From the NCBI GenBank assembly GCA_015066805.1, contig SVNP01000010.1:1-64000 (forward strand): a DNA stretch of 64,000 bases, given 5' to 3'. Position 1 is the stretch's first letter, and each line of letters opens with the position of its first letter. The position numbers were made by a program, and so were the translations under genes. This document shows, piece after piece, positions 1 to 20,920 of this stretch. A model generated the notes under the pieces. The model saw nothing but the letters and a program-made list of their open reading frames with translations, ran no database searches and was not told the origin of the DNA. The stretch is from Ruminococcus sp. (lineage in GTDB: Bacteria > Bacillota > Clostridia > Oscillospirales > Ruminococcaceae).

Positions 1-42
1 GGAATGTCGCCTGTTGAATACCGTCTCTCAACTGCTGCATAA
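1..42 (+). CDS. IS3-family transposase OrfB, C-terminal 13 residues
   Basis: The open frame from base 1 reads GMSPVEYRLSTAA and then TAA. The motif G-(M/L)-SP-(V/E)-x-YR is the hallmark C-terminus of IS3-family OrfB DDE transposases. Only this fragment is in the window, so activity cannot be judged. The terminal inverted repeat follows 60 bases downstream, as expected for this family. Confidence 0.8.
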   Translation, partial: GMSPVEYRLSTAA

Positions 43-127
43 TGCAGCAAAGCGACCAAGCCTGCCGCTTAATCGCTTTGCACAATGTTTTCTATTATTC
101 TTTGTCTAACTTTTGGGTGTCAGTTCA
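1..127 (+). mobile_element. IS3-family insertion sequence, right end only
   Basis: The window opens inside an insertion sequence. The first 42 bases encode the conserved C-terminus of an IS3-family transposase. Positions 103-127 (tgtctaac...cagttca) match the usual IS3/IS150-type terminal inverted repeat, which ends in CA at 126-127. The left end and most of the transposase lie outside the window. The element has landed in the leftward ATPase gene, so the stop codon of that gene (106-108) lies inside the IS end. Confidence 0.8.
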
Positions 128-1308
128 AATAATCTTCGTAAGTACTTATTTTGAAATAACTGTACCTCTGATTCACCCTCCACATAAACAAGATAATCAC
201 TGAAATAGCATTCCGTTTCTTTAATGGTTACGGTATGTTTTCCGTCTTTCAGCCATTGCAGATTCAATTTTGTAAGAATCGTGTGCAGTCTATAATCCGA
301 AGTGCGATATAATGCATATTCAACACCTTGATTGGTGAGCTCCTCAATTACTTTTGGAGAATGGGTTGTAAAAAGCAACACCGCCTTATCTTCTATACTA
401 TGATGTATGCATTCAACCAATTCCGTAATAAATGCACTATGCAAACCTATTTCTGGTTCATCTATCATGATAAGCGGATGTTTACAGCTCAACTCTGACA
501 CATAAGGAATCAACGAAATCAATAACTTCAGATATTTATACGAGTTTGTTCCATCAGAGTAATAATCCAGATTCCGTTCATTAAATTCAAATTGCTCTCC
601 ACCAAAACGCAATTTAAATACATCCTTAAATCTCGAACGAAAACTAAATGGATCCAAGCTGATTCCTTCTTCTTTGAAGGTATCTTCTATTTTCTGTTTG
701 CTTTTGATGTATCGTTCGCCATATATTGCAAAAAACGCTTCATCCAGTTTCTTAAGGTGTTCTACATTTTCCCGAGGCACCGACATCAACAAATCACCGA
801 TGATATCCCATAGTTTGTTCCATGATTGTAAATCAAGATTACGAACATTAATAAAATAAATGGGAAAATATCTTTTGATTGCATTCAGTATTTTCTCCTG
901 GTACTTCTTATCAATACTCCATACAATTCGTCCATCTCTATATTGAATCATGGTTATTGATAGCACATCAGAAACTTTCCCAAAGAACTCTTGCTGATAT
1001 TCTTGAATGAAATTCATGATTTCAGACAATTCTTTGTTGCCCTTGGATTTCATAAACATTCTCGCCAGATTAAAGGATATTGTAATGGTACACTTCTGAA
1101 CATACGGATTCACACCGTCAATTACTACATCATCTGAGTGTTGCTTATTTAGTTTGGAAAAGAAGTAGTTAACAGCATGAAACAGGGTAGACTTTCCCGT
1201 TCCATTCTTACCTAAAATACCAATTATGTGTTCATTTTGAATACATAGTTTCAAAGACTCGATTGATTTGAAATTTGTGATCTCTATACGTTTAATCAAA
1301 GCTTTCAC
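106..1308 (-). CDS. OLD-like AAA ATPase, C-terminal TOPRIM domain cut off by IS3 insertion
   Basis: This is an SMC/RecF-like AAA ATPase. It has a Walker A GKNGTGKST at about residues 33-41, a Walker B LIMIDEPEIGLHS near 280-292, and an H-loop-like FTTHSP near 314. After about residue 370 a TOPRIM domain begins (VYVEGESE), as in OLD-family nucleases, but it breaks off after a few residues. The last six residues (ELTPKS) and the TAG stop are encoded by the IS3 terminal repeat. The native gene was therefore longer, and this allele probably lacks nuclease function. It is the last gene of a leftward operon, 17 bases after the 253-aa membrane protein. OLD-type ATPases often act in DNA repair or phage defence; a defence role here is inference. 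Confidence 0.8.
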   Translation of the reverse strand: MKALIKRIEITNFKSIESLKLCIQNEHIIGILGKNGTGKSTLFHAVNYFFSKLNKQHSDDVVIDGVNPYVQKCTITISFNLARMFMKSKGNKELSEIMNFIQEYQQEFFGKVSDVLSITMIQYRDGRIVWSIDKKYQEKILNAIKRYFPIYFINVRNLDLQSWNKLWDIIGDLLMSVPRENVEHLKKLDEAFFAIYGERYIKSKQKIEDTFKEEGISLDPFSFRSRFKDVFKLRFGGEQFEFNERNLDYYSDGTNSYKYLKLLISLIPYVSELSCKHPLIMIDEPEIGLHSAFITELVECIHHSIEDKAVLLFTTHSPKVIEELTNQGVEYALYRTSDYRLHTILTKLNLQWLKDGKHTVTIKETECYFSDYLVYVEGESEVQLFQNKYLRRLFELTPKS

Positions 1309-1325
1309 CTACTCAATATTGACAT

Positions 1326-2087
1326 TCAATGAACGTAATACTCGTTCAGTTCATCATATTGAGCTTTACCGATCTCTATGCCATTCAAAGCATAGTACAT
1401 TGTATCAACGCTGATATACTCCTCATAAAGCTCATCTTTTGAAGAAATGTTACCCCGTGCATCCATCTCAAAGATCTTTCGTACCGATGCACCACCATAG
1501 CCAAATGACTGTATCAGATGCTGCGCAGCGCATATCTCTGCACTCCCACCAAATGACACTGCTTGTCTGTAATCGGTCTCAAAAAAAATGTACATGGAGG
1601 TCATATCGTCAGCCTCCGTAGCATAGTTGATCAGAAGCTCCGGCACACCATCTGCGTTGATATCGCACAAGCCATACATTACAGAGTCATTGAAAGAGTT
1701 GTCAAGCATGAAGTCCTCCAGTGCTCGAAGACTTGCGGATTCATACGTTTCATAAGGAACAGCACTTATTGTTGTCTGCGTTTTTGTAGTAATTTCTGAT
1801 GCAGTACTGGTTGTGACTTCAGAATGTGTAGTTGAAGATTCAGTAGTATAAGTTGTAACAGAACTTGTAGTGGTTTCTTCCGGGCTTGTAAATATAGTTG
1901 TTGTGATATCTGTTGTAACTGTTTCAGCATAATTAGAATTGAGAATTTCATCTTGTTCATGTTTCTCGCTATATCCTTTGTAGAAAAGTATGTATATAGC
2001 AGCTGCAATGATTACTATAAAAATGTAAATGATAACGCCAATGCTCCATGAAGCGGAGCCATTCTTTGTGACATCTGTATTGCTCAT
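1326..2087 (-). CDS. Membrane-anchored protein with Ser/Thr-rich stalk, unknown function
   Basis: A 253-aa protein. A short N-terminal cytoplasmic segment is followed by one transmembrane helix (about residues 16-36), then a low-complexity Ser/Thr/Glu stalk (about 55-110), then an outer globular domain. That domain carries an EF-hand-like CDINADGVPELLI segment, as seen in FG-GAP or dockerin-type calcium loops. The gene lies 9 bases after the 347-aa multi-pass protein and 17 bases before the ATPase, so the three are probably co-transcribed. I do not recognise the family. The topology suggests an extracellular sensor or binding domain on a stalk. Confidence 0.7.
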   Translation of the reverse strand: MSNTDVTKNGSASWSIGVIIYIFIVIIAAAIYILFYKGYSEKHEQDEILNSNYAETVTTDITTTIFTSPEETTTSSVTTYTTESSTTHSEVTTSTASEITTKTQTTISAVPYETYESASLRALEDFMLDNSFNDSVMYGLCDINADGVPELLINYATEADDMTSMYIFFETDYRQAVSFGGSAEICAAQHLIQSFGYGGASVRKIFEMDARGNISSKDELYEEYISVDTMYYALNGIEIGKAQYDELNEYYVH

Positions 2088-2096
2088 AGATAATCC

Positions 2097-3140
2097 TCAC
2101 CTCTTCATTTCATTATCGATATCAATATCGATCTTACTTACATCAGACGTTTTTATTCCTGTAAAAATCATTTTAAACGCAATACTCATTATGCTGACTG
2201 CTGAACCTATTACGAAAGCGATAAGCGCAATATACAGAAACATATTCATGATGTCCGGAATAAATGGAAGTGGTGAGCCGAAATAACGAAGTCCCCCCGA
2301 AACAATAGTTCCAATTGCAGCATACAGCAAGGGACTAAAAAAATCCATAAATGAAGCAGAAGGTGTGACGATTTCAATGATCATAAGGACGAATAGCGCA
2401 AGTATAGTTAATACGATGAATACAACACACGCGTATTCGGTGATTCCATCCAGATCGACCATTATCTGTAGATCATTGCTGTGAAACATATTGAAATAAT
2501 AGTATAACGTAATAGAAAGAATTAAGCAGGCAATGTTGGAGGAAAAAAACTTTGACGCGAAATTCTTTTCGGTATAACCAAACATAAGTGCAAAAACAAG
2601 TCCCATAACAAGAAAAGACAACAGTATGACTAAGAGTTTGGAAATTGCGGTGATTTCACGAATGATTGGCAACACTCCGATGCATCCGAAAGCAAATCCA
2701 CAATAAAAAGCAAATCGGAACAATTTCACCATAACAATATTATGATTCTTCGTGAATTTAAGTGCTGCTGTAATAAAGATATCATAGCCATATATCAAAA
2801 AGCAAGCGACTGCTCCGACAAAGCAGAATGTCATTCCGTAATAGCAAATGTTATGATTCAATTTCTCAGGAAAGTTAATTACGTCAAGACGGTTATTTAT
2901 CGAGCATGAAAAAGCATACATGACACTCATAAAACAAGCAGAAATGAGCAGTGATAAACCTGATACTATAAAGTGATGTTTTGTATTTATCTTTTGGAAT
3001 AGATAGATACAAAGACTTATAGCTGCCATTATCCCAAAAAAAGTAGAAATCAATACAGTGATCGGGAATAAAAAGCCACATACTCCAAAAACTAAAGCCC
3101 CTATCATCGAAAAAATAAAGCATTTAACACTAACCGGCAT
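2097..3140 (-). CDS. Multi-pass membrane protein, unknown function
   Basis: A 347-aa protein made almost entirely of hydrophobic helices. I count about nine or ten likely transmembrane segments. They are joined by short loops, and the C-terminal tail is charged and rich in Asp and Lys. A strong Shine-Dalgarno (AAAGGAGG) precedes the ATG. It follows the 55-aa Cys-rich gene by 72 bases and precedes the single-pass stalk protein by 9, so it sits in the leftward operon that ends in the interrupted ATPase. No transporter signature is recognisable. The ORF, ribosome site and operon position make it a real gene. Confidence 0.7.
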   Translation of the reverse strand: MPVSVKCFIFSMIGALVFGVCGFLFPITVLISTFFGIMAAISLCIYLFQKINTKHHFIVSGLSLLISACFMSVMYAFSCSINNRLDVINFPEKLNHNICYYGMTFCFVGAVACFLIYGYDIFITAALKFTKNHNIVMVKLFRFAFYCGFAFGCIGVLPIIREITAISKLLVILLSFLVMGLVFALMFGYTEKNFASKFFSSNIACLILSITLYYYFNMFHSNDLQIMVDLDGITEYACVVFIVLTILALFVLMIIEIVTPSASFMDFFSPLLYAAIGTIVSGGLRYFGSPLPFIPDIMNMFLYIALIAFVIGSAVSIMSIAFKMIFTGIKTSDVSKIDIDIDNEMKR

Positions 3141-3212
3141 ATTAGAACCTCCTTTAACTTAGCTGGGATTTTACTTAGCATATGCTGCAACATATTAATC
3201 GTATATTTATCA

Positions 3213-3380
3213 TTACTTATCACTCTCCTTTTCAACTATCGGTATATCCCGCTTAATGATAGGCTCATGAAATGGATGCGTCTTTTTATTGCTTAATCTG
3301 CATTTGGAGCATGGATTCTGCGTGCATTTGATCATTCCTAAGTGATAAGGACAGCTCAGGCATTTTTTTAATAATTTCAA
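3213..3380 (-). CDS. 55-aa Cys-rich small protein, TTG start
   Basis: This short ORF starts with TTG at 3380, six bases after a good ribosome site (GGAGGG, 3387-3392). It encodes a basic protein with Cys at about residues 7, 10, 19, 24 and 27 (CxxC, then CxxxxCxxC), which resembles a small zinc- or metal-binding knuckle. It is the first gene after the consensus leftward promoter at 3452-3480 and comes before the membrane protein, ATPase operon. No homologue is recognised. The gene call rests on the promoter, the ribosome site and the Cys pattern. Confidence 0.55.
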   Translation of the reverse strand: MKLLKKCLSCPYHLGMIKCTQNPCSKCRLSNKKTHPFHEPIIKRDIPIVEKESDK

Positions 3381-3451
3381 AGCGCTCCCTCCAAAAAGAG
3401 TTAAGTGCGAGTTGCATCAAAATATCACACCATCCGACAGGATTAACATCT

Positions 3452-3480
3452 ATTATACACTATAAGTTCTTGTTTGTCAA
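3452..3480 (-). promoter_or_regulatory. Sigma-A promoter for the leftward membrane/ATPase operon
   Basis: On the minus strand TTGACA (3475-3480) and TATAAT (3452-3457) are separated by 17 bases, a perfect consensus. The start of transcription would fall near 3445, about 50 bases before the 55-aa ORF. Confidence 0.75.
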
Positions 3481-3553
3481 CCCCGAGAGTTTATGTATAT
3501 CCACCAAAATTTGTAGTACAATAGGAGAGAAATCACCGAAAAGGATGGAAGAA

Positions 3554-3883
3554 ATGCGGAATATCGACTATAAACAAATGGGACAGCGTGTACGTACACA
3601 ACGAGAACTTTTAGGGTATACCCGAGAACAGTTGGCAGAAGCCCTGGATGTGTCCACAAAATTCTGCGCAGATATTGAACTGGGGGTAAAGGGCATGTCG
3701 ATTCAGACCCTTGCCAAGCTATCCGATCTGCTTTGTATGTCCACAGATGAGATTTTGTTTGGTGCGACACCAAACGCACAGCTCCATACGCTTTCTGCAC
3801 TGATCGCCAAATGTCCCGAGCAATATCAGACAGAGCTGATTGCGATTATAAGAGCTTTTCTATCCGCAGTGGAAAAGGACTGA
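3554..3883 (+). CDS. Xre-family helix-turn-helix regulator
   Basis: A protein of about 109 aa with an N-terminal Xre/cro-type HTH: MGQRVRTQRELLGYTREQLA, then VSTKFCADIELG as the recognition helix. A short helical C-terminus follows. The start at 3554 is chosen because AAGGA (3541-3545) is spaced 8 bases before it; an in-frame ATG at 3545 is possible. A weak TACAAT -10 lies at 3517-3522. It sits at the left edge of the mobilizable element, opposite the mobilization genes, and would be expected to control element genes. It is a typical accessory regulator and its target is unknown. Confidence 0.8.
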   Translation: MRNIDYKQMGQRVRTQRELLGYTREQLAEALDVSTKFCADIELGVKGMSIQTLAKLSDLLCMSTDEILFGATPNAQLHTLSALIAKCPEQYQTELIAIIRAFLSAVEKD

Positions 3884-3904
3884 CACGAACATCATATGCA
3901 CGAA

Positions 3905-3924
3905 AGCCCGCCGATTGGCGGGCT
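3905..3924. terminator. Bidirectional hairpin terminator
   Basis: A perfect 8-bp stem AGCCCGCC/GGCGGGCT with a GATT loop lies between the converging Xre and relaxase genes. Confidence 0.6.
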
Positions 3925-3937
3925 ATTCCTATATCTG

Positions 3938-4411
3938 CTACTCAAATACAAATCTACAAGGGCGTTGGGTCAGTGCAGATACATAGTCACAAAATGCTTG
4001 TACATTCGTTGCGCTGCTGTGATACATCATACCGTTGATGTAGCTGACTGAATTGATGACAATATGACAGTGATAGAACGAGCTCTGCCGATGTTTTTCA
4101 TGCACACACCAAAGCACCTGATACTGTGAGTGAAAATAAGCAGCGATCTGTCTGCTCAAAATACAAGCTCTTTGCGTATCTCTGACCGATTGGTCAAAGG
4201 AAACCACAAAATGCATCAGTGGATTGCCGCTTGTCTTGCCGAAGTACGCCTTTACCTGCATCATCTGGTGCACGGTGTATTCCAATTGATACGGATCAAC
4301 CCCGTACCCGTCACAGTCGATGTTTCTTTCCGCATTTTCAAGATAGCGGCAGGCATTGAGCAGATATCGCTCTCCGCCATATGTATCACGCTTTACTTTA
4401 ACAATGACCAT
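3938..4411 (-). CDS. Minimal relaxase (mobilization nuclease domain)
   Basis: A 157-aa protein corresponding to only the nuclease core of a MOBP-like relaxase. An N-terminal ACRYLEN segment carries the likely catalytic Tyr. MHFVVSFD forms the central strand. A YHCHIVINSV motif near residue 117 supplies the His metal-binding cluster. Relaxases of this class normally exceed 300 aa and carry extra C-terminal domains, which are absent here. The start overlaps the MobC-like gene by 19 bases, which suggests translational coupling. It would nick the element at an origin of transfer, to be carried by a helper conjugation system. Confidence 0.75.
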   Translation of the reverse strand: MVIVKVKRDTYGGERYLLNACRYLENAERNIDCDGYGVDPYQLEYTVHQMMQVKAYFGKTSGNPLMHFVVSFDQSVRDTQRACILSRQIAAYFHSQYQVLWCVHEKHRQSSFYHCHIVINSVSYINGMMYHSSATNVQAFCDYVSALTQRPCRFVFE

Positions 4412-4671
4412 ATATCGTTCGCCTCCTTTCTCATTTCATTGAGCGCTTCTGGTTCCAGTTTTCCTTCGATCCGAACGGCTGTATTGAGGAGATTCTGTAT
4501 CCGAACGAGCAGTTCCGGTCGCATACCATGTCCGGGATGCATTGACTGCTCCACCATATAAGCAGATACGGATTGTTTTCGCTGCTTGGCGAGGCATACA
4601 ATGTTTTGATCTTCTTCCTCAGTCATACGCACTGATCGAATGACATCTTTCTTTTCTGATTGTTTTCTCAT
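4393..4671 (-). CDS. mobC: MobC-like relaxosome accessory protein
   Basis: A 92-aa protein. Its N-terminal half (RSVRMTEEEDQNIVCLAKQ) looks like a ribbon-helix-helix DNA-binding domain, as in MobC/MbeC relaxosome proteins, and its C-terminal half is helical. The start at 4671 is fixed by GGAGG eight bases upstream; longer in-frame ATGs lack a ribosome site. It is coupled to the downstream minimal relaxase. The likely origin of transfer lies in the AT-rich DNA just upstream (4672-4879), but I could not identify a nick site. Confidence 0.7.
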   Translation of the reverse strand: MRKQSEKKDVIRSVRMTEEEDQNIVCLAKQRKQSVSAYMVEQSMHPGHGMRPELLVRIQNLLNTAVRIEGKLEPEALNEMRKEANDIWSLLK

Positions 4672-4770
4672 AGTCAAATCCTCCATAATTATCATAATAT
4701 TCATATTACAGGTCTCTCGCTTCGCTCGTTCTTATCATATTGTATTACATTTTTGAAGATTTTGATTTTT

Positions 4771-4879: not shown

Positions 4880-5164
4880 ATGTTTCGGAATCCACGTTAC
4901 CTGACAAAAGGAATCGAAGGAACTGTTCCTATTGTCATGCAGCAATTCCTGTGGCAATGCATTGACGCAATGCCCGAGCCAAAAGACTACCTGCAGGTAT
5001 TCGAGCTGGGAGCCATCAACGGTATGCAGCGTATCTGCCACACATCGGAGCAGCCGTACTACCGTATGGAGTATCTGCTCCCCACGCCCGAACCGATCAC
5101 CGCAAAGATTTATGTGATCGACGACAATACGCACAGCACCATGCTGCTTGCGGAAGAATACTGA
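4880..5164 (+). CDS. DUF960 family protein
   Basis: A 94-aa protein beginning MFRNPRYLTKGI and carrying the internal LWQCIDAMPEPKDYLQVFEL segment split by this family's usual spacing. It matches the DUF960 family of small Firmicutes proteins of unknown function. The start at 4880 is set by AAAGGAGG about 7 bases upstream; upstream in-frame codons lack a ribosome site. A terminator follows directly at 5167-5195, so it is probably transcribed separately from the amidoligase. DUF960 genes are common on Firmicutes mobile elements, and their role is not known. Confidence 0.75.
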   Translation: MFRNPRYLTKGIEGTVPIVMQQFLWQCIDAMPEPKDYLQVFELGAINGMQRICHTSEQPYYRMEYLLPTPEPITAKIYVIDDNTHSTMLLAEEY

Positions 5165-5166
5165 AT

Positions 5167-5195
5167 GCCCCTGTCAATCGACAGGGGCAATTTTT
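5167..5195 (+). terminator. Rho-independent terminator after DUF960 gene
   Basis: A 9-bp perfect stem GCCCCTGTC/GACAGGGGC with an AATC loop is followed by AATTTTT. Confidence 0.85.
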
Positions 5196-5211
5196 GTTTA
5201 TGGAGGTTTCA

Positions 5212-6300
5212 ATGGAAAACGAAAGAATCTGTGTCCTGTGCGAATGCACCTTAGAAAACGATGACGACTGTGTGGAGGTGGAAGATTCCATCGTCTGTTC
5301 GGATTGCTCCTGTGAGGAATGTACTGTCTGCCAATGCTGCGGTCGTCGGGTATTCAACGTTAACGCGACCGCTGACGAGCATATTTGCGTCTGTGATTCC
5401 TGCTATGAACGCTGCTACACCCGCTGCGAGCAATGCAGCCGCATCATTCATTCGGATGATGTGTACGGCGATGAAGATGAAGAATACTGTGCGGATTGTT
5501 ACAGCCGCCAAAATCAGGCCATACGGGAATACGGTTATAAGCCCCGCCCTGTATTTTACGGCAGCGGCAGCCGCTTCTTCGGCGTGGAGCTGGAGATCGA
5601 CTACGGCGGACGTGACGAGGACAATGCCGAAGCGCTGCTGGAAATCGCCAACCGTCACCACAAGCATATCTACATCAAATCCGACGGCAGTCTGGATGAC
5701 GGTATGGAGATTGTAACGCACCCCATGTCTCTTGTCTATCACCTGGAGGAGTTTCCGTGGGAAGATTTGCTACATCAGGCAGTGCATATGGAATACCGTT
5801 CCCACCAAACAAGCACCTGCGGTCTGCATATTCATGTGGATCGGACAAGTCTGGGCACCAATCAGGCGATACAGGAGGAGACGATCTCACGCATCCTCTA
5901 CTTTGTGGAGGCCCACTGGAATGAGATGCTGCGGTTTTCACGCAGGAGCGAAGCCAATATGAACCGCTGGGCGGCACGCTACGGCTATGAGCATCAGCCG
6001 AAAGCCATTCTGGATAAGGCAAAAAGCGCCTATGGAAGATATACTGCCGTCAATCTCTGCAACGAACACACCATTGAGTTCCGGATGTTCCGCGGCACCC
6101 TGCGGCGCAACACGCTGTTTGCGACTCTGCAGCTGGTAGAGCATATCTGCAATGCGGCACTGTATCTGTCCGATGAGGAGATCAAGGGGCTGTCATGGTC
6201 GGACTTTGTATTGCACATCAACGAGACGGAGCTGATTCAATACCTGAAAGAACGCCGCCTGTATATCAACGAAGAAATCAAAACAGAGGAGGAATTGTAA
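5212..6300 (+). CDS. Amidoligase_2 family enzyme with Cys-rich zinc-binding N-terminus
   Basis: A 362-aa protein. Residues 1-105 contain about 20 Cys in CxxC pairs and resemble several treble-clef or LIM-like zinc knuckles. Residues 115-355 form a glutamine-synthetase-fold amidoligase (Amidoligase_2), with FFGVELEID, the substrate/metal motif TCGLHIHVD near 207-215, and EFRMFRGTL near 290. Family members are predicted to form amide bonds using ATP. The start at 5212 follows GGAGG. The stop overlaps the start of a 39-aa ORF (TAATG), and a class II glutamine amidotransferase follows. The three are likely one transcript, suggesting a peptide- or metabolite-amidating pathway. The substrate is not known. 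Confidence 0.8.
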   Translation: MENERICVLCECTLENDDDCVEVEDSIVCSDCSCEECTVCQCCGRRVFNVNATADEHICVCDSCYERCYTRCEQCSRIIHSDDVYGDEDEEYCADCYSRQNQAIREYGYKPRPVFYGSGSRFFGVELEIDYGGRDEDNAEALLEIANRHHKHIYIKSDGSLDDGMEIVTHPMSLVYHLEEFPWEDLLHQAVHMEYRSHQTSTCGLHIHVDRTSLGTNQAIQEETISRILYFVEAHWNEMLRFSRRSEANMNRWAARYGYEHQPKAILDKAKSAYGRYTAVNLCNEHTIEFRMFRGTLRRNTLFATLQLVEHICNAALYLSDEEIKGLSWSDFVLHINETELIQYLKERRLYINEEIKTEEEL

Positions 6301-6419
6301 TGAAAAATGCATGTAAGATTCTGACGGTGATCGGGATGATGCTGCAGCTGATCCCGTTCCTGATTCAGATGCAGGAGGACGATTCTGCGCCCCTTCTGTG
6401 GGGCGATATTCTGAAATAA
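6300..6419 (+). CDS. 39-aa small protein between amidoligase and amidotransferase
   Basis: The ORF starts at an ATG overlapping the amidoligase stop codon (TAATG), with GAGGAGG just upstream. It ends 13 bases before the amidotransferase. The peptide has a basic N-terminus (MKNACK), a hydrophobic stretch of about 17 residues suitable for one membrane helix, and an acidic tail (QEDDSAP...GDILK) with a single Cys. Overlapping start, ribosome site and position support translation. It could be a membrane-anchoring subunit or the substrate of the flanking enzymes; neither is shown by the sequence. Confidence 0.55.
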   Translation: MKNACKILTVIGMMLQLIPFLIQMQEDDSAPLLWGDILK

Positions 6420-6432
6420 GGAGGAAAAAGCA

Positions 6433-7389
6433 ATGTGTGCATTATTCGGTTTTCTGGATTACGGCAAGCAGACATCTCATAAGACTCTGCAGAAGCTGGT
6501 GCAGCTTCTTGCCCATGCATCGGAGGTGCGTGGTACTCATGCCAGCGGGATCTCATATATTCAAAACAACGAGCTGAAAATCTACAAACGCCCCAAGCCT
6601 GCCCACAAGATGCATTTCCGTATTCCCGACAATACTACGGCTCTTATGGGACATACCCGCTTTACTACCCAGGGCGATCAGAAGAAAAACTGCAACAACC
6701 ATCCGTTTCGCGGCTATGCAGATATGCCCTTTGCTCTTGCGCATAACGGCGTGCTGTACAATGATGATTCTCTGCGCAGAGAGAAGAATCTCCCTGCTAC
6801 CGACATTGAAACGGACAGCTACATTGCGGTACAGCTGATCGAATCCCAGAGGAAGCTGTCCTTTGAGTCCCTGCGTTATGCAGCAGAGGCAGTGCGTGGA
6901 TATTTCACCTTCACCTTGCTGGATATGCAGAATCGGCTTTACTTTGTCAAGGGTGAAAGTCCCCTGTATCTGCTGCATTTCCCTGCGACGGGGCTTTATG
7001 TGTATGCATCTACCAAGGAAATCATGGAGGATGCTCTTCGGCGTATGCATCTCCAATGGCAGAAGCACACGGTGATCGACGTAACGGAGGGCGAAATCCT
7101 TTGTATTGACTCGTGTGGCAGCATCACCCGTGACTGCTACACGGTACAGAAGGATTCCTATGGGTTCAGTTATCGCTATCCTCAATCCTATTATCCATGG
7201 GAGGACACTTTCCATTCCCCACGGCTCCACGCTGAGTACCATCTGCTGGCAGACCTATGCGGCTACTACGGTGTGACGCCCGAAGAAGTGCAGTATCTCT
7301 TTGATATGGGCTACACCTACGATGAGGTAGAGGCGTTTCTGATGGATCCCGGAGCTTTGCAGGCGGAGCTTGCCTGTGCGGAGGTATGA
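6433..7389 (+). CDS. Class II (Ntn-type) glutamine amidotransferase
   Basis: A 318-aa protein with an intact Gn_AT_II fold: catalytic Cys2 (MCALFGF), GTHASG near 36, the Arg loop GHTRFTTQG near 74-82, NHPF, and the oxyanion pair in LAHNG near 104, followed by TDIETDSY. This is the glutaminase domain of GlmS/PurF-type enzymes without a synthase domain, so it should release ammonia from glutamine for a partner. The partner is probably the amidoligase encoded immediately upstream. AAGGAGG precedes the ATG. The C-terminal ~60 residues are extra and helical, with a UBA-like pattern (GVTPEEVQYLFDMGYTYDEV). Confidence 0.85.
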   Translation: MCALFGFLDYGKQTSHKTLQKLVQLLAHASEVRGTHASGISYIQNNELKIYKRPKPAHKMHFRIPDNTTALMGHTRFTTQGDQKKNCNNHPFRGYADMPFALAHNGVLYNDDSLRREKNLPATDIETDSYIAVQLIESQRKLSFESLRYAAEAVRGYFTFTLLDMQNRLYFVKGESPLYLLHFPATGLYVYASTKEIMEDALRRMHLQWQKHTVIDVTEGEILCIDSCGSITRDCYTVQKDSYGFSYRYPQSYYPWEDTFHSPRLHAEYHLLADLCGYYGVTPEEVQYLFDMGYTYDEVEAFLMDPGALQAELACAEV

Positions 7390-7529: not shown

Positions 7530-8129
7530 ATGGACAACAGAATTTATGGCTACGCCCGTGTATCCACCCGTGAGCAGAATGAAGACCGGCAAATCGCAGC
7601 GCTGACCGGCTTCGGTGTGCCCGAGCAGAACATTATCATTGACAAGTGCTCCGGCAAGGATACGGAGCGTGAAGGATATCAATATCTCAAGCGGCAGATT
7701 CTCCGCAGTGGTGATACACTGGTCATCAAGGAGCTTGATCGGCTCAGCAGAAACAAATCGGACATCAAGAGAGAGCTGGAGCACTTCCGGGGGGCTGGGG
7801 TTCGCGTGAAGATTCTGGATATCCCCACCACGCTCACAGACTTTCCGCCGGAGCAGCTGTGGGTCATGGATATGATAAACGCAATCCTGATTGAAGTGCT
7901 TGGCAGCATTGCCGAGAACGAGCGTCTGAAGATTCGTGCCAGACAGCGTGAGGGCATCGAAGCCGCAAAAAAGAAAAACGTCCGCTTCGGACGACCGCTT
8001 GCACCCCTACCGGATAACTGGCGGGAGGTTATGGCGAAAGTCCGCTGCGGACAGATGAAGCCCATAGAGGCCATGCGTTTGCTGGGGATTTCAAGATCGC
8101 ATTACTATCGGCTTTACAATAGTATGTAG
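7530..8129 (+). CDS. Small serine recombinase (resolvase/invertase family)
   Basis: A 199-aa protein with the resolvase N-terminal domain. The nucleophile Ser lies in GYARVSTREQNEDRQ near residue 11, conserved Arg in LKELDRLSRN near 70, the E-helix follows, and a C-terminal HTH_7-like motif ends it (MKPIEAMRLLGISRSHYYRLY). The length is normal for Tn3-type resolvases and DNA invertases. ATG 7530 follows GGAGG. An imperfect 62-base inverted repeat lies directly upstream. The element also carries a large serine recombinase, so this enzyme may resolve dimers or invert a segment. Confidence 0.9.
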   Translation: MDNRIYGYARVSTREQNEDRQIAALTGFGVPEQNIIIDKCSGKDTEREGYQYLKRQILRSGDTLVIKELDRLSRNKSDIKRELEHFRGAGVRVKILDIPTTLTDFPPEQLWVMDMINAILIEVLGSIAENERLKIRARQREGIEAAKKKNVRFGRPLAPLPDNWREVMAKVRCGQMKPIEAMRLLGISRSHYYRLYNSM

Positions 8130-12726: not shown

Positions 12727-14298
12727 ATGCCGAAAGTGGGAATCTACTGCCGCTTGTCCATCGAGGACAAGGATAAATCTGATGCCCATGACAGCCAGAG
12801 TATCAGCAACCAGAAATCAATGCTCCGGGATTACTGTTTGGATCGGGGCTGGGAGATCTACGACATTTATGTGGATGACGGATATAGCGGCATTGACCGC
12901 AGCCGTCCGGCATTTTGTCGGTTGCTTCGGGACTGCGAACAGGGTAAAATCAACATTGTACTTTGCAAAGACCAGTCCCGATTCTCCCGCGATACCATGG
13001 TCATTGAAGAATATCTGAACGATAAGTTTCTGGAATGGGACATCCGCTTTATCGGTGTGGCAGATCATGCGGATACGGAAAACGAGAGCTACGGCACCAT
13101 ACGGCTGTTTACCAGTGCATACAACGAGATGTACGTCAAGGATATCTCCGCAAAGATTCGCCGTACCCTCTCCTATAAGCGGGAGCAGGGGCAGTTCATC
13201 GGTTCCTTTGCGCCCTACGGATATCAGATCGACCCCGAAGATAAGCATCATCTCATCATTGACCTGGAGACTGCACCCGTTGTCAGGCGGATATTCGATC
13301 TGTATATCAGCGGCGAAGGCTATCGGAAAATCGTGCAGCAGCTGAATACGGATGGTATACTCAGTCCCAGTGCCTATAAGCGTGCAAACGGTTCCAAGTA
13401 TACCAACTGCAACGCCGATGCCAGTAATTCATGTGGGCTATGGACGCAATCAACCGTGTCAAAGATACTCACCAATGAAGTCTATACGGGTACGCTGGTG
13501 CAAGGAAAATCCCACCATGTCAGCTACAAGAACAAGAAACGGAAAAAGGTCAACCCCTCCGATTGGGTTCGTGTGCCGGATACCCATGAAGCCATTATTG
13601 ATGCGGAAACATGGGCACGGGCACAGGAGCGGCTCAACAGCAGAGCCCGTACCGGAAAAAACGCACAGACCCTCTCTCCTCTCTCGGGCAAGGTGCGCTG
13701 TGCTGTGTGCGGCAGACCCATGAAGCGAAATGTCTATTACAACAAGGCGAAAACCATCCAATATTACGGCTTGCAGTGCGCTTCCTATAAAACAGGTGCC
13801 ATGAATTGTCCGAATACACGTTCTGTCAGCGGTAAGATGCTGGAAAAGACCATTCTGGATGAGCTGAACAGCATCGTGAAATCCTACTGTCAATCGGATG
13901 AGATTCATTTCAACGATTTTCATTCCGACCAGCTGAAAACACTGGAAAGCAGTCTTGCTAAGCTGAAGGAACGGCAGGAATCTGCAAAAAAGCGGCTGGT
14001 TGCCATGTACAAGGATAAGCTGGATGGGGTCATATCAGAGGCAGATTATCAGTTATTCCGCAGCAGCCTGACCGTGGAGGAACAGCAAGCCTCCGAACGG
14101 ATAGAGACTGTGTGCGAGCAGATCGCTGCCTGCCGGAAGCGCATAGAGAACGCCGCAGGGCAAAGAGCGCTGCTGGAGCAGTACACACACTTTGAGCAGC
14201 TGGACCGCACCATTGCCGATGAGTTTATTGATTACATTGAGATCGGTATGACGGACGAGCAGGGTGTACGGGAGATACATATTCACTGGAAGATATAA
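12727..14298 (+). CDS. Large serine recombinase (TnpX-like)
   Basis: A 523-aa protein. The catalytic resolvase domain spans about 1-150, with the active Ser in YCRLSIEDK near residue 9 and the Arg-containing KDQSRFSRD near 80. A recombinase domain follows (about 160-280). A zinc ribbon (CAVCGRPM ... C) lies near 330-375, and a coiled coil near 400-490. This is the architecture of transposon integrases such as TnpX of Tn4451. AAGGGAGG precedes ATG 12727; a GTG at 12718 is less likely. It is probably the enzyme that integrates and excises the element. Confidence 0.9.
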   Translation: MPKVGIYCRLSIEDKDKSDAHDSQSISNQKSMLRDYCLDRGWEIYDIYVDDGYSGIDRSRPAFCRLLRDCEQGKINIVLCKDQSRFSRDTMVIEEYLNDKFLEWDIRFIGVADHADTENESYGTIRLFTSAYNEMYVKDISAKIRRTLSYKREQGQFIGSFAPYGYQIDPEDKHHLIIDLETAPVVRRIFDLYISGEGYRKIVQQLNTDGILSPSAYKRANGSKYTNCNADASNSCGLWTQSTVSKILTNEVYTGTLVQGKSHHVSYKNKKRKKVNPSDWVRVPDTHEAIIDAETWARAQERLNSRARTGKNAQTLSPLSGKVRCAVCGRPMKRNVYYNKAKTIQYYGLQCASYKTGAMNCPNTRSVSGKMLEKTILDELNSIVKSYCQSDEIHFNDFHSDQLKTLESSLAKLKERQESAKKRLVAMYKDKLDGVISEADYQLFRSSLTVEEQQASERIETVCEQIAACRKRIENAAGQRALLEQYTHFEQLDRTIADEFIDYIEIGMTDEQGVREIHIHWKI

Positions 14299-14332
14299 TG
14301 CAAGCTGTTTGGAGGAGAGCGGCTTGCATTTT
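14297..14332 (+). terminator. Terminator of the large recombinase gene
   Basis: A 9-bp stem AATGCAAGC/GCTTGCATT followed by TTCC. Its right arm contains the -35 box of the next promoter. Confidence 0.65.
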
Positions 14333-14352
14333 CCTGTTCTATGTGTTATAAT
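14324..14352 (+). promoter_or_regulatory. Promoter of the AAA-PD-(D/E)XK gene
   Basis: TTGCAT (14324-14329), 17 bases, TATAAT (14347-14352). The -10 lies inside what would be the first codons from the ATG at 14341, so translation must start later, at GTG 14386. Confidence 0.65.
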
Positions 14353-14385
14353 AACGATACTAGGCATCAGAGAGGATGTGAGACT

Positions 14386-15963
14386 GTGAAAAAGGTATTC
14401 AACATCACCGGCAGCTGTATTTCTCGGCTGCATTACATGGTGAATCTCGAAAGCCGTCTGCAAGCCATCCGAAAAATGGTGGATGCAGGGCAATATATCA
14501 CGATCAACCGCGGCAGACAGTACGGCAAAACCACTACGCTCAAGGCGTTGGCAGGCTATCTCAGTAACGATTATTATGTGCTGAACATGGACTTCCAGAC
14601 CGCAATGAGCAGTGCAGCGTTCCAAACGGAAGAAGCATTTGCAAAGGCGTTTGTAAAGGCATTCTGTTTTCTGTTTGATTTGCTTGATACGACCGATGAA
14701 TTGGACAGTCAGCTTGCAGCCATGCAGAAAGCGGCAGCCGAACCCATCGAACTGGTAGAGCTTTTCCGCTGTCTCGCTAAAATATGCAAGACAGCCGCCA
14801 AACCCATCGTGCTGCTGATTGATGAAGTGGACAGCGCTTCCAATAATCAGGTGTTTCTGGATTTTCTGGCACAGCTCCGTGGTTACTATCTGAACCGCGA
14901 TACCGTGCCTGCATTCCATTCCGTGATTCTTGCAGGCGTTCACGATATCCGCAATTTGCAGCTGAAGATCCGTTCGGATGCCGAGCATAAGCACAACAGC
15001 CCCTGGAACATCGCAACGGCTCTGGAGATCGATATGAGCTTTTCGTCAGACGACATTGCCGGTATGCTCGAAGAATATGAAGCCGACCACAGCACCGGAA
15101 TGGATATTGCCGCCGTTTCGCAGATCATCTACGACTATACCTCCGGCTATCCGGTTCTGGTATCCATGATCTGCAAGTTTATGGACGAGAACACTGCGCT
15201 TGCCGCATCGGAAGTGTGGACGGCGCAGGGCGTAAAGCAGGCAGTCAGACAGGTATTGTTTGTACAGGCTCCCCTGTTTGAATCCCTCATCAATAAGCTG
15301 GAGCAATATCCGGCTCTGAAACAGCAGGTCTGCGCGCTGCTGGAAAAGGGCAGCCGCATTCCCTACCGTCCCGACGATGAAGCCACCAAGCAGGCTATCA
15401 TGTTCGGATTTGCAAAGGTGCAAAGCGGCAGTCTTGTCATTGCCAACCGTATTTTTGAAACACGGTTTTATGATATGCTGCTGACGGATCCCGGTGTGAC
15501 CGATACGCAGATTTATCGTGCTGCCGAAGCCGAAAAGCCGCAATTCACGCAAAACGGTCAGCTGAACATGGAATTGATTCTCGAAAAGTTTGTGCAGTAC
15601 TTCCATGATATTTACGGCGAACAGACCGAGCGGTTCATTGAAGATGACGGCAGAAAGCTGTTCCTGATTTATCTTCGCCCGATCATAAACGGCACCGGTA
15701 ATTACTACATTGAAGCACAAACCAGAGATCTGACCCGTACAGATGTGATTGTTGACTATTTAGGACACCAATATGTGATCGAAATGAAGATCTGGCGCGG
15801 CAAGGAGTACAATGAGCGTGGCGAACAACAGCTTGCCGAGTATCTGGACTATTTCCATATCAAGAAAGGCTATATGCTGAGCTTCAACTTCAACAAGAAT
15901 AAACAGGTCGGCACGAAAACCATTCAGATCGGCGACAAAACACTATTTGAGGCAGTGGTATAA
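14386..15963 (+). CDS. AAA-like ATPase with C-terminal PD-(D/E)XK nuclease-like domain
   Basis: A 525-aa protein. Walker A GRQYGKTT lies near 43-50 and Walker B PIVLLIDEVDSAS near 143-155. The C-terminal domain has a PD-(D/E)XK arrangement: RTDVIVDY then YVIEMKIWRG near 458-480, with E-x-K intact. This combination (AAA-ATPase-like plus PDDEXK_9) is common in Clostridia and Bacteroidetes, often in many copies and on accessory DNA. GTG 14386 is preferred because the promoter -10 lies downstream of the ATG at 14341. Its biological role is unknown; a link to mobile elements or defence is inference. Confidence 0.8.
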   Translation: MKKVFNITGSCISRLHYMVNLESRLQAIRKMVDAGQYITINRGRQYGKTTTLKALAGYLSNDYYVLNMDFQTAMSSAAFQTEEAFAKAFVKAFCFLFDLLDTTDELDSQLAAMQKAAAEPIELVELFRCLAKICKTAAKPIVLLIDEVDSASNNQVFLDFLAQLRGYYLNRDTVPAFHSVILAGVHDIRNLQLKIRSDAEHKHNSPWNIATALEIDMSFSSDDIAGMLEEYEADHSTGMDIAAVSQIIYDYTSGYPVLVSMICKFMDENTALAASEVWTAQGVKQAVRQVLFVQAPLFESLINKLEQYPALKQQVCALLEKGSRIPYRPDDEATKQAIMFGFAKVQSGSLVIANRIFETRFYDMLLTDPGVTDTQIYRAAEAEKPQFTQNGQLNMELILEKFVQYFHDIYGEQTERFIEDDGRKLFLIYLRPIINGTGNYYIEAQTRDLTRTDVIVDYLGHQYVIEMKIWRGKEYNERGEQQLAEYLDYFHIKKGYMLSFNFNKNKQVGTKTIQIGDKTLFEAVV

Positions 15964-16198: not shown

Positions 16199-16266
16199 CA
16201 ACTCAAAAAACGACGTATATACGAGGAAATTCGGACTCGGTTTTAGTAGATTCGCCACATGGCGGC

Positions 16267-16824
16267 ATGGATGGCGGATGCTCCACGGCAGAGGGCGTAC
16301 CCGAAAAGGGCATCAACCTGGAGATCATGCTGGCATTGCGGGATTGGCTTGAAGCCTTCGGGTACCATGTAGAGGTAACCAGAGAAACCGACCGTTCCAT
16401 TCATGATCAGGGCATTGAGGGCATTGCCAACCAAAAAAGCTCGGATATGGACAATCGGCTGGCGTTGTTTAACAAGTATGATAACGCTGTATGCATTTCC
16501 ATTCACCAGAATCAGTTTACCGATCCCAAATACAGCGGCGCGCAGATGTTTTACGCCAACACCAACAGTGAAAGCGAAGCACTGGCACAAAGCTTACAGG
16601 ATCAGTTCCGACAGCAGCTTCAGCCGCAAAACCAACGGGAGATCAAGCTGTGCGGCTCCGAGCTGTTTTTATGCTACTATTGTGAAAATCCCACGGTCAT
16701 GGTAGAATGCGGTTTCCTCTCCAATGCGGATGAAGCCGCCCTGCTGACCACGGAAGAATACCGTCAGAAGGTGGCATTTACCATTTTCAGCGGCATTCAG
16801 CAATGGCTTGCCCACAAAAAATGA
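16267..16824 (+). CDS. N-acetylmuramoyl-L-alanine amidase (Amidase_3), 5' end damaged
   Basis: The amidase fold is clear: EKGINLEIML, VTRETD, the zinc ligand in ISIHQN near residue 78, and the catalytic Glu in VMVECGFLSN. However, the first zinc His lies upstream of the only ATG (16267), in VLVDSPHGG encoded at 16240-16266. No in-frame ATG, GTG or TTG occurs between it and the stop at 16195-16197. The usual DPGHGG motif also reads DSPHGG. The protein has no signal peptide. A good promoter and a GAGGA site precede it, so the start codon has probably been lost or the gene truncated. It lies at the right edge of the mobile region. Confidence 0.7.
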   Translation: MDGGCSTAEGVPEKGINLEIMLALRDWLEAFGYHVEVTRETDRSIHDQGIEGIANQKSSDMDNRLALFNKYDNAVCISIHQNQFTDPKYSGAQMFYANTNSESEALAQSLQDQFRQQLQPQNQREIKLCGSELFLCYYCENPTVMVECGFLSNADEAALLTTEEYRQKVAFTIFSGIQQWLAHKK

Positions 16825-16830
16825 ATACAA

Positions 16831-16881
16831 AAAAGCATCTGCACGGTCTGTATGCAACAGATCATGCAGATGCTTGTTTTT
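16831..16881. terminator. Bidirectional terminator between amidase and trxB
   Basis: AAGCATCTGCA/TGCAGATGCTT stem with A-tract and T-tract on either side, between converging genes. Confidence 0.75.
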
Positions 16882-17788
16882 ATTGAGCATCCAGATAGCG
16901 GCAAGCAGCCAAAGCAGCCGCTGCGCCATCGGAAGTAGCGGTTACGATCTGCCGGACCGCCTTTGTGCGGCAGTCACCTGCCACAAACAGACCCTCCGTC
17001 TGTGTGGTACAACGTTCATCCGCCATGATGTAGCCCCAATCATCCAGTGCAGCATAATCACGGAAGGCTTCATTATCGGGCTGTTGACCGATTGCAACAA
17101 ACACACCTGTCACATCCAGACGCTGCTGCATACCGGCACCCAACTGAATATGGATTCCATCCAGAGCATCCTCACCGCAAAGCTGAGTGACCTTGGCATC
17201 GGTGATGATACGCACATTGGGCAGCTTACGCAATCTTGCCTGCAAAACCTTTTCACCGGTCAGCTCCGGCAGATTCTGCACCACGGTCACTTCCTCACAA
17301 AGATCGGCAAGCAAAATAGCATCCTGCAAGGCAGTATTGCCGCCGCCGATGACCGCAACCTTCTGTCCCCGATAGAAAGCACCATCGCAGACAGCACAGT
17401 AGCAAACGCCTGCGCCCACCAGCTCGGTTTCCTTGTCCAGTCCCAGCATTCTGTGCTTGGCACCTGTGGCAAGAATGACCGTTCTGCCTTCGTAGGCGGA
17501 AAACTCACCCTGCACCGCAAAGATATCACCGTTTTTGGCGATGGCCGTTACGGTATCCAGTTCGATATCCGCACCCTGTGCCTGTACCTGTGCCAGCAGC
17601 AGATCTGCAAAAGCACTGCCGCTGATCTCGGCATGAGTGGGGAAATTTTCAATTTTAGGGGAAAAAGTGATCTGTCCGCCGAAGGTTTCTTTTTCAATGA
17701 CCAACACAGATTTCTCCGCACGGCGGGCATACAGGGCGGCAGTCATACCTGCCGGCCCTGCGCCGATGACAATCACATCATACACCAT
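16880..17788 (-). CDS. trxB: Thioredoxin reductase
   Basis: A 302-aa flavoprotein. The FAD site GAGPAGMTAALYA lies near 9-21, the redox pair CAVC near 131-134 (after GVCY), the NADPH site GGGNTALQDA near 148-157, and the C-terminal FAD motif GLFVAGDCR near 272. It transfers electrons from NADPH to thioredoxins. It lies 17 bases after nrdD in the same direction. Because NrdD here carries a fused redoxin domain, this reductase is the likely electron donor for ribonucleotide reduction. RBS GGAGAG precedes the ATG. Confidence 0.93.
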   Translation of the reverse strand: MVYDVIVIGAGPAGMTAALYARRAEKSVLVIEKETFGGQITFSPKIENFPTHAEISGSAFADLLLAQVQAQGADIELDTVTAIAKNGDIFAVQGEFSAYEGRTVILATGAKHRMLGLDKETELVGAGVCYCAVCDGAFYRGQKVAVIGGGNTALQDAILLADLCEEVTVVQNLPELTGEKVLQARLRKLPNVRIITDAKVTQLCGEDALDGIHIQLGAGMQQRLDVTGVFVAIGQQPDNEAFRDYAALDDWGYIMADERCTTQTEGLFVAGDCRTKAVRQIVTATSDGAAAALAACRYLDAQ

Positions 17789-17805
17789 GATGGATCTCTC
17801 CTCGT

Positions 17806-20193: not shown

Positions 20194-20227
20194 AATGCTT
20201 CGACTCCTTTTTTCAAATTTTGTTGTG

Positions 20228-20920
20228 TTACATTCCTCGTAACGCTGCATGGGGTATGTTGGTCTGCACGATCTCCAAAAAACGGCGCATCTGCGACGGT
20301 GTACAGGCATGGAGCCCGCTTTGGATCAGTGCACCCGAATCCGTAAACTGCTGAAGATAATACGCCTTGGCACCCTTCAGCCAGCCGCCGATGACGGCAA
20401 AGGATTCTTCGTTGTGGTACTCCCGTACCACGGTTGTGCGGAACTCATAGGGAATGCTGCCATTCATCAGATAACGCACGCTTTCGTTGACAGCCTCCAC
20501 GGATACCTGTTCGGTACCGACAGTGGCGGCATACAGCGCAGGTGCATTTTTGATGTCCATGGCAACCATATCTATCAGACCGCTTTCACACATTGTGATC
20601 AATCGCTGCGGCATGGAACCGTTGGTATCCAGCTTAATGGCGTAGCCCATCTCCCGAATGGGACGGATGAACTCTGCCAGATCAGGCTGCAGCAGCGGCT
20701 CTCCTCCGGTAATGCAGACACCATCCAGCAGCCCCCTGCGCTTTTGCAGGTAGGCGTAGACAGTTTCGATATCCACGGGTGCATCGGGGGCTTTCTGTGT
20801 TACCAGCGGAGCGTTATGACAGAACGGGCAGCGGAAATTACAGCCATAGGTAAACAATGTACAGGCTGTTCTGCCGGGAAAATCCAGCAGTGTAAGATTC
20901 TGCATCCCTGCTAAGATCAC
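20228..20920 (-). CDS. nrdG: Anaerobic RNR activating enzyme (radical SAM)
   Basis: A 230-aa radical SAM protein. It has the CxxxCxxC cluster motif CNFRCPFC near residues 27-34, then the GGEP motif (CITGGEPLLQ) near 79. It generates the glycyl radical on NrdD using S-adenosylmethionine. GTG 20920 is chosen because GGGGAGG lies seven bases upstream; a longer frame from 20947 has no ribosome site. It is the first gene of nrdG-nrdD-trxB, 34 bases before nrdD, with a consensus promoter and NrdR boxes upstream. Confidence 0.92.
   Translation of the reverse strand: MILAGMQNLTLLDFPGRTACTLFTYGCNFRCPFCHNAPLVTQKAPDAPVDIETVYAYLQKRRGLLDGVCITGGEPLLQPDLAEFIRPIREMGYAIKLDTNGSMPQRLITMCESGLIDMVAMDIKNAPALYAATVGTEQVSVEAVNESVRYLMNGSIPYEFRTTVVREYHNEESFAVIGGWLKGAKAYYLQQFTDSGALIQSGLHACTPSQMRRFLEIVQTNIPHAALRGM

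Follow-up and report, generated by a model that had tools for sequence, protein, structure and literature searches.

A LIM-fingered amidoligase and a glutamine amidotransferase flank a small hydrophobic open reading frame on a putative mobilisable element of Ruminococcus sp.

The first 64,000 nucleotides of contig SVNP01000010.1 from Ruminococcus sp. (GenBank assembly GCA_015066805.1), hereafter the window, carry a compact module of three genes encoding an amidoligase, a hydrophobic peptide of 39 amino acids (aa) and a class II glutamine amidotransferase (GATase). Comparison with related loci indicates that amidoligase and GATase are near-obligate partners and that the small open reading frames (ORFs) at their junction are a real gene class. 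With moderate confidence, we propose that the two proteins form a two-subunit, glutamine-dependent amidation enzyme, served by an optional and exchangeable membrane-adaptor peptide and expressed together with a DUF960 protein by a mobile element. The parts of the module are the following (pLDDT, predicted local distance difference test).

5212..6300, forward strand: amidoligase (362 aa), supported by profile matches and a structure model of pLDDT 94
5230..5499, forward strand: LIM-like zinc fingers, amidoligase residues 7-96, with 12 conserved Cys arranged as six CxxC pairs
5563..6273, forward strand: glutamine-synthetase-fold catalytic domain, amidoligase residues 118-354, by fold match
6287..6292, forward strand: AGGAGG ribosome-binding site of the 39-aa ORF, within the amidoligase 3' end, 7 nt before the ORF
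6300..6419, forward strand: 39-aa hydrophobic peptide, an ORF whose position matches the small ORFs of 39 other loci
6433..7389, forward strand: class II GATase (318 aa), assigned by Pfam and a PurF/GlmS-fold model of pLDDT 89
7219..7383, forward strand: GATase C-terminal helical domain, residues 263-317, from model helices and a conserved alignment pattern

All three genes proved to be real, lie on the forward strand and are as tightly packed as the original prediction, made from the sequence alone, had described. The overlap of the ATG of the 39-aa ORF with the amidoligase stop codon (TAATG), the ribosome sites, including GGAGG at 6420-6424 ahead of the GATase, and the Met-Cys, HNG and HIH motifs were all confirmed.

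Relatives occur in 21 of 197 family genomes, in 32 of 394 at the level of the order and in 15 of 398 at that of the phylum (3 strong matches, 12 weak and partial), these genome sets overlapping one another. Scans of sequence collections yielded 451 relatives among 567 pattern matches on genome contigs and at least 579 among the 600 matches listed on viral contigs; the best 80 of each scan were kept, and the counts favour close relatives. From 220 loci, 8 fragments and 5 loci cut by a contig end were set aside, leaving 207 usable for the pairing count. A class II GATase gene follows on the same strand within 2 kb in 197 of these 207 near-full-length amidoligases (here a frame of 200 aa or more that scores 100 or more), comprising 134 of 136 core and 63 of 71 distant loci, where core denotes an amidoligase score of at least 350 in the pairing and context counts, and of at least 470 with identical copies removed in the slot tree described below. 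For the distant loci, the GATase profile was built from 58 Met-Cys...HNG ORFs beside viral amidoligases. The paired loci lie on Ruminococcus-type elements as well as on diverse viral contigs, and amidoligase and GATase genes are spaced by -53 to +20 bases in 90 of the 220 loci, as judged with the family profile. The pairing, gap, context and slot-peptide counts were not dereplicated, and L005/L081 as well as L003/L022/L082 look like the same loci.

The amidoligase combines a LIM-like zinc-finger region with a C-terminal domain that adopts a glutamine-synthetase fold in the structure model. Its Pfam Amidoligase_2 match reaches 21 bits against a curated cut-off of 22 (E=3.5e-4), and 64 of 69 relatives match this family at E<=0.1, the best at 4.4e-11. 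The window protein also matches two PHROG amidoligase families (6e-10 and 1e-5) and, over almost its full length, a PHROG family of unknown function (1e-97). One of the alignments, A2, retains two badly started rows (L171 and L173). In the alignment of 69 rows, R245 is invariant and E128, H206, H208, E289 and R291 are nearly so; H206 and H208 belong to the HIH motif (residues 206-208). We take these conserved acidic, His and Arg positions to be catalytic. Ten of the 12 Cys of the LIM-like region are invariant among 14 relatives and the other two nearly so. A profile of this region matches LIM proteins such as CRP1 (E=1.8e-4), and Pfam LIM is matched at E<=0.1 by 21 of the 69 relatives. Binding of the substrate, or of a partner, is the probable role of these fingers.

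The GATase scores above the cut-offs of both GATase_6 (E=3.8e-12) and GATase_7, and its model matches PurF and GlmS. The Met-Cys start, R76, N105-G106 and D128 are common to all 39 aligned proteins, with C2 invariant. Its C-terminal helices show a conserved pattern in the alignment and gave no confident Pfam family; a resemblance to UBA domains suggested by eye was rejected, as DUF4250 and UBA_2 were each matched by only one of the 39 proteins (E 0.077 and 0.19).

The original prediction that the GATase supplies ammonia to the amidoligase is thus very probably right, judging from the pairing and from the conserved residues in both proteins. The GATase would hydrolyse glutamine at Cys2 and hand the ammonia to the glutamine-synthetase-fold ligase, which would activate a carboxylate with ATP and convert it to an amide.

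Several loci depart from the simple gene pair. Tandem amidoligase copies precede a single GATase in L003/L022, L082, L119 and L123, mostly with small ORFs between them, and L003, L022 and L082 look like one locus. The amidoligases of L122 and L124 are 93% identical and their GATases only 70%, which suggests recombination within the operon. L030 and L033 are a phage and a plasmid amidoligase of Clostridioides difficile, adjoining a gene that carries the annotation nucleotidyltransferase in L033.

In 40 loci, amidoligase and GATase are separated by 104-392 bp. This gap is filled by an ATG ORF in 38 of them, where shuffles predict 0.71; a membrane-grade stretch is present in 27 of the 38 ORFs, where 0.01 would be expected. 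L031, in which a stop codon breaks the amidoligase frame, and five loci with gaps below 60 bp (L075, L146, L186, L213 and L217) were dropped from this set; the gap-filling and hydrophobicity counts also omit the tandem amidoligase loci L022, L082, L119 and L123, and L087, whose slot measures 402 bp. For the window gap, 319 of 5000 dinucleotide shuffles gave a filling ATG ORF, 5 of them with a membrane-grade stretch. A mean Kyte-Doolittle value of at least 1.6 over 17 residues is reached by 30 of the 32 slot peptides that are not DUF4314 proteins (or 27 of 29 when the comparison is restricted to 45 aa and above, like the background ORFs), versus 17% of 201 other small ORFs from the same loci, a background that comes from a simple caller and includes false ORFs. 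The window peptide reaches 2.02. Hydrophobic residues cluster more than in shuffles of the peptide's own residues in 24 of the 32 (p<0.05).

Purifying selection is evident in those peptide families that lend themselves to comparison. Among 51 pairs of slot peptides more than 55% identical, from groups chosen by eye, the ratio of nonsynonymous to synonymous changes (pN/pS) lies at 0.10-0.39 in 46 and lower in three, with one pair at 0.54 and one undefined; 28 of these pairs are DUF4314 proteins, and the window peptide is not among the 51.

The occupant of the slot changes rapidly. Of the 128 core amidoligases placed on a tree, 80 lack a junction gene, 33 have a small hydrophobic ORF, 8 have a DUF4314 gene and 7 resisted classification (L031 entered as having none, and the states of L003, L022, L082, L087 and L119 set by hand). 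The hydrophobic type requires at least 12 changes on this tree, seven of them forced by starred branches. The DUF4314 genes form one clade, their name coming from the Pfam match of L103 (E=2.9e-30). In the 105 locus pairs with an amidoligase identity of 85% or more, both slots are empty in 49, the peptides are similar in 27, a peptide faces an empty slot in 16, and the two peptides are less than 50% identical in 13.

The reading of the peptide that fits best is an optional, exchangeable adaptor which would draw the enzyme to the membrane's inner face. The substrate might then be a carboxylate of a cell-wall precursor or of a membrane protein at the membrane, and its amidation might change the host cell to the advantage of the element; on substrate and benefit alike we can only guess. 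Several findings weigh against the model as a whole. Amidoligase and GATase are fused in none of the 207 usable loci, and no GATase was found in ten loci whose amidoligase spans 200 aa or more and which have enough downstream sequence (L003, L017, which is truncated, L030, L033, L155, L164, L177, L183, L187 and L216), so that free ammonia or a different amine may at times serve the ligase instead. L003 shares its contig with L022, and there the GATase comes after the second amidoligase copy. Eight loci hold DUF4314 in the slot rather than a membrane peptide. Hydrophobic clustering in the window peptide itself does not exceed that in shuffled versions of it (p=0.081), and a protein search of the 395 other family genomes gave no recognisable homologue of this peptide, hence no relative with which selection could be gauged. 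The search across all 396 family genomes returned the window itself and three weak matches (E 0.06-0.09, one with an internal stop).

Two other roles for the small ORF were weighed against that of an adaptor. The original prediction had offered the peptide as a substrate or a membrane anchor, and the anchor half fits the data better. As a substrate, the peptide would have its C terminus or its Asp/Glu side chains amidated by the pair to give a small bioactive peptide. Its adjacency, the overlapping start codon and the acidic residues near the C terminus speak for this: at least one falls within the last 12 residues of all 32 slot peptides other than DUF4314, and at least three in 27 of them, the window peptide having two. 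An obligate substrate role is nevertheless unlikely, because near-identical enzymes (92-97% identity) carry unrelated peptides or none; moreover, the slot is empty in 80 of the 121 classed core loci, and the window peptide lacks a homologue. The prediction had named conserved Asp, Glu, Asn or Cys residues in a conserved ORF as support for a substrate; when this check was run no such conservation was found, so the idea fails its own test, and we regard it as quite unlikely. For the same reasons, a ribosomal peptide modification cluster with the ORF as precursor was rejected, since the precursor is not conserved with the enzymes. Somewhat better placed, if still doubtful, is an independent cargo gene, for instance a small membrane-active one, that uses the junction for translation only and has no role in the enzyme. 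The high turnover of slot genes would agree with this, as would DUF4314 in the same slot in one clade and, in 4 of 78 slot-less loci (L040, L042, L045 and L058), a short hydrophobic ORF that is preceded by a match to a ribosome site and lies just 3' of the GATase instead. A random cargo site would not, however, give slot genes of one physical type, far over background, as seen in 30 of the 32 outside DUF4314.

Two further proposals concern what the enzyme does, and both come from phages. The pair may modify peptidoglycan precursors and thereby shut out phages or rival elements, a function predicted for phiEco32 and other phages. A change of the cell wall that guards against superinfection is suggested in the accessible portions of PMC10580990 and of PMC11318856, which names the amidoligase alone, both citing Iyer et al. 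2009, and also in those of PMC11945000, and a membrane peptide would suit a lipid-linked substrate. PMC11945000 describes, in the portion seen, a phage peptidoglycan-modification module of GGCT, ATP-grasp, aminohydrolase, amidoligase and COOH-NH2 ligase. Its amidoligase and an amidotransferase are present here. A gamma-glutamyl cyclotransferase (GGACT) was not found in the cluster; six of 15 genomes have one, always on another contig than the amidoligase (several of these contigs being short), and the window's own genome, 80% complete, has none. COOH-NH2_lig was found in none of the 15 genomes, in a search where the control genomes gave no match either, and no ATP-grasp protein was recognised by eye among 45 neighbour families, for which no profile search was made. 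We consider a peptidoglycan target, which is compatible with our model, possible but tentative. In contrast, an auxiliary nitrogen-metabolism pair that aids ammonia assimilation by the host is highly improbable. Such a role was proposed for a Planctomycetes phage which carries the pair and promoted growth on nitrate or ammonium, according to the accessible part of PMC10945688. A GATase draws its ammonia from glutamine and would not assimilate nitrogen, and both the LIM-like fingers and the membrane peptides would be left unexplained.

The surroundings of the module bear on its expression and on its mobility. The neighbouring features are as follows.

3938..4411, reverse strand: small MobA/VirD2-like relaxase (157 aa), Pfam Relaxase E=3.2e-14
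4393..4704, reverse strand: NikA-like mobilisation accessory protein, Pfam NikA-like E=1.6e-5, 25.3 bits, just below the cut-off of 27
4708..4727, strand not assigned: candidate motif ACAGGTCTCTCGCTTCGCTC resembling an origin of transfer (oriT), adjoining the NikA gene, a lead only
4880..5164, forward strand: DUF960 protein (94 aa), Pfam DUF960 E=4.2e-26
5166..5199, forward strand: terminator-like hairpin (5166-5189, 10-bp perfect stem) with T-rich tail, abutting the amidoligase ribosome site
7530..8129, forward strand: small serine recombinase, Pfam Resolvase E=4.6e-28
12727..14298, forward strand: large serine recombinase, Pfam Resolvase, Recombinase and Zn_ribbon_recom, each above cut-off

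A DUF960 gene lies upstream of the amidoligase on the same strand in 81 of the 124 core loci whose upstream sequence extends to 800 bp or more, and a relaxase and NikA-like gene lie divergently upstream in 28 of the 69 with at least 2.5 kb. We made these counts with profiles built on core loci, since the ORF caller had in some cases preferred an antisense frame to the DUF960 gene. The profiles detected none of the three genes in the 71 distant loci that offer 800 bp or more; they may overlook other types in remote phages. The hairpin recurs in 51 of 87 unique DUF960-amidoligase spacers and in none of 870 shuffles. Because only 12 bases separate its tail from the amidoligase start codon in the window, the amidoligase is probably reached by read-through; the element would express the amidation pair with DUF960 through a leaky terminator, and the recurrent hairpin is a possible attenuator.

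That the module sits on a mobile element, as originally predicted, is supported by the relaxase, the small serine recombinase with its Resolvase match above cut-off, the large serine recombinase and, below its cut-off, the NikA-like protein, which together represent genes of an integrative mobilisable element; the boundaries of such an element were not found. Matches to part of window 16250-20310 occur in 26 of 30 genomes of the genus (own genome included), and the alignment with G760, the sole genome compared for the boundary, begins at window 16258. A single comparison of window 14251-14520 with 1-4000 for attachment (att) sites gave one common 11-mer and nothing longer. On the left the window begins at the contig start, and across 30 genomes window 1-3500 matched a single other genome, there in a short repeat alone. 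Bases 1-127 of the contig reappear at 100% identity over 97-126 bases at nine other sites of the same genome, several of them the first bases of contigs, which points to a multi-copy repeat that breaks the assembly.

The R. flavefaciens strain XPD3002 carries five of the kept loci (L083, L099, L104, L115 and L128) with two different peptide families. For two of these, L083 and L099, similarity at E<=1e-10 is confined to 3.8 kb that surround the module (89% identity), showing that the block moves; a relative of the small serine recombinase lies inside this common block. The ACAGGTCTCTCGCTTCGCTC-type motif, which was defined by eye on the window and L083, occurs in 4 of the 33 loci that have both relaxase and NikA, the two source loci included, and in none of 105 core loci without NikA.

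A possible defence gene lies near the module: an AAA ATPase at window 106-1308 (reverse strand) matches PADLOC ATPase-Toprim_I-B at 7.5e-103 and GajA, Old and AriA more weakly. The product of 14386-15963 is an AAA_35 ATPase with a weak C-terminal PD-(D/E)XK nuclease match below the family cut-off. PADLOC gave no match at E<=0.01 for the amidoligase, peptide, GATase or DUF960 protein; a single weak match of the small serine recombinase to CARF3 (E=0.005) was taken as chance. Given its place between mobilisation genes and recombinase, the module may lie in the leading region of transfer. In plasmid transfer, this region is a known place of anti-defence genes (PMC11541004), and a term search of the accessible text of that paper found no mention of amidoligase, amidotransferase or DUF960. 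A bolder extension of our model, speculative and on balance unlikely, would be a membrane-targeted amidation machine of conjugative and phage-like elements in gut Firmicutes, in which the small, quickly exchanged hydrophobic peptides act as targeting or specificity subunits; a swap of peptide would redirect the one conserved enzyme to another membrane substrate, serving the element's own exclusion or counter-defence, switched on as DNA enters the recipient.

The chemistry proposed here has a parallel. MurT-GatD is a two-protein system for glutamine-dependent amidation of a peptidoglycan carboxylate, composed of the Mur-ligase-type MurT and the class I GatD. The window pair resembles it in being a two-protein system for carboxylate amidation with glutamine, whereas the protein families are, to our knowledge, unrelated. 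Compared with YbdK-type carboxylate-amine ligases and glutamine synthetase, the window amidoligase has an extra LIM-like N terminus and probably receives its ammonia from a separate GATase. That GATase shares fold and Met-Cys start with the glutaminase domains of PurF and GlmS, but stands alone, with its own C-terminal helical domain and no synthase domain.

The closest counterparts are encoded by phages. The available parts of the genome reports annotate an amidoligase and a GATase in UFV-P2 (PMC3890496), in the OM43 phages MEP401/402 (PMC10580990) and in a Planctomycetes phage (PMC10945688). The original prediction tentatively held the product and its benefit to be undescribed; the pair has in fact been named in phages and a cell-wall role predicted, and what the accessible text of these papers and of PMC11945000 and PMC11318856 offers is prediction without a test. 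Among the titles listed by our searches of the open-access literature on amidoligases with GATase, mobile or conjugative elements, phages or LIM, none dealt with the module in this form or with its junction peptide. The mycobacteriophage Marvin group, MEP401/402 and the LUZ24-like phages are alike in encoding amidoligase and GATase together. The amidoligases of the Marvin group and MEP401/402 are homologous to that of the window, and MosMoris has an adjoining Met-Cys GATase ORF; LUZ24-like phages were absent from the 24 matches of the amidoligase search. UFV-P2 differs from the window, in the portion of its description seen, by an HNH gene between amidoligase and GATase and by COOH-NH2 ligase and ATP-grasp genes nearby. 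Unlike the phage pairs, the window module has LIM-like fingers, DUF960 upstream, a hydrophobic peptide at the junction and the context of a mobilisable element. The pair as such, which recurs across phages and mobile elements, was thus already known, and what is new is its junction peptide partner: the window holds a LIM-fingered, mobilisable-element form of a known but uncharacterised amidation pair. The exchangeable membrane peptides provide a handle missing from the accessible parts of the published descriptions, as they point to the membrane and offer natural variants for finding the substrate.

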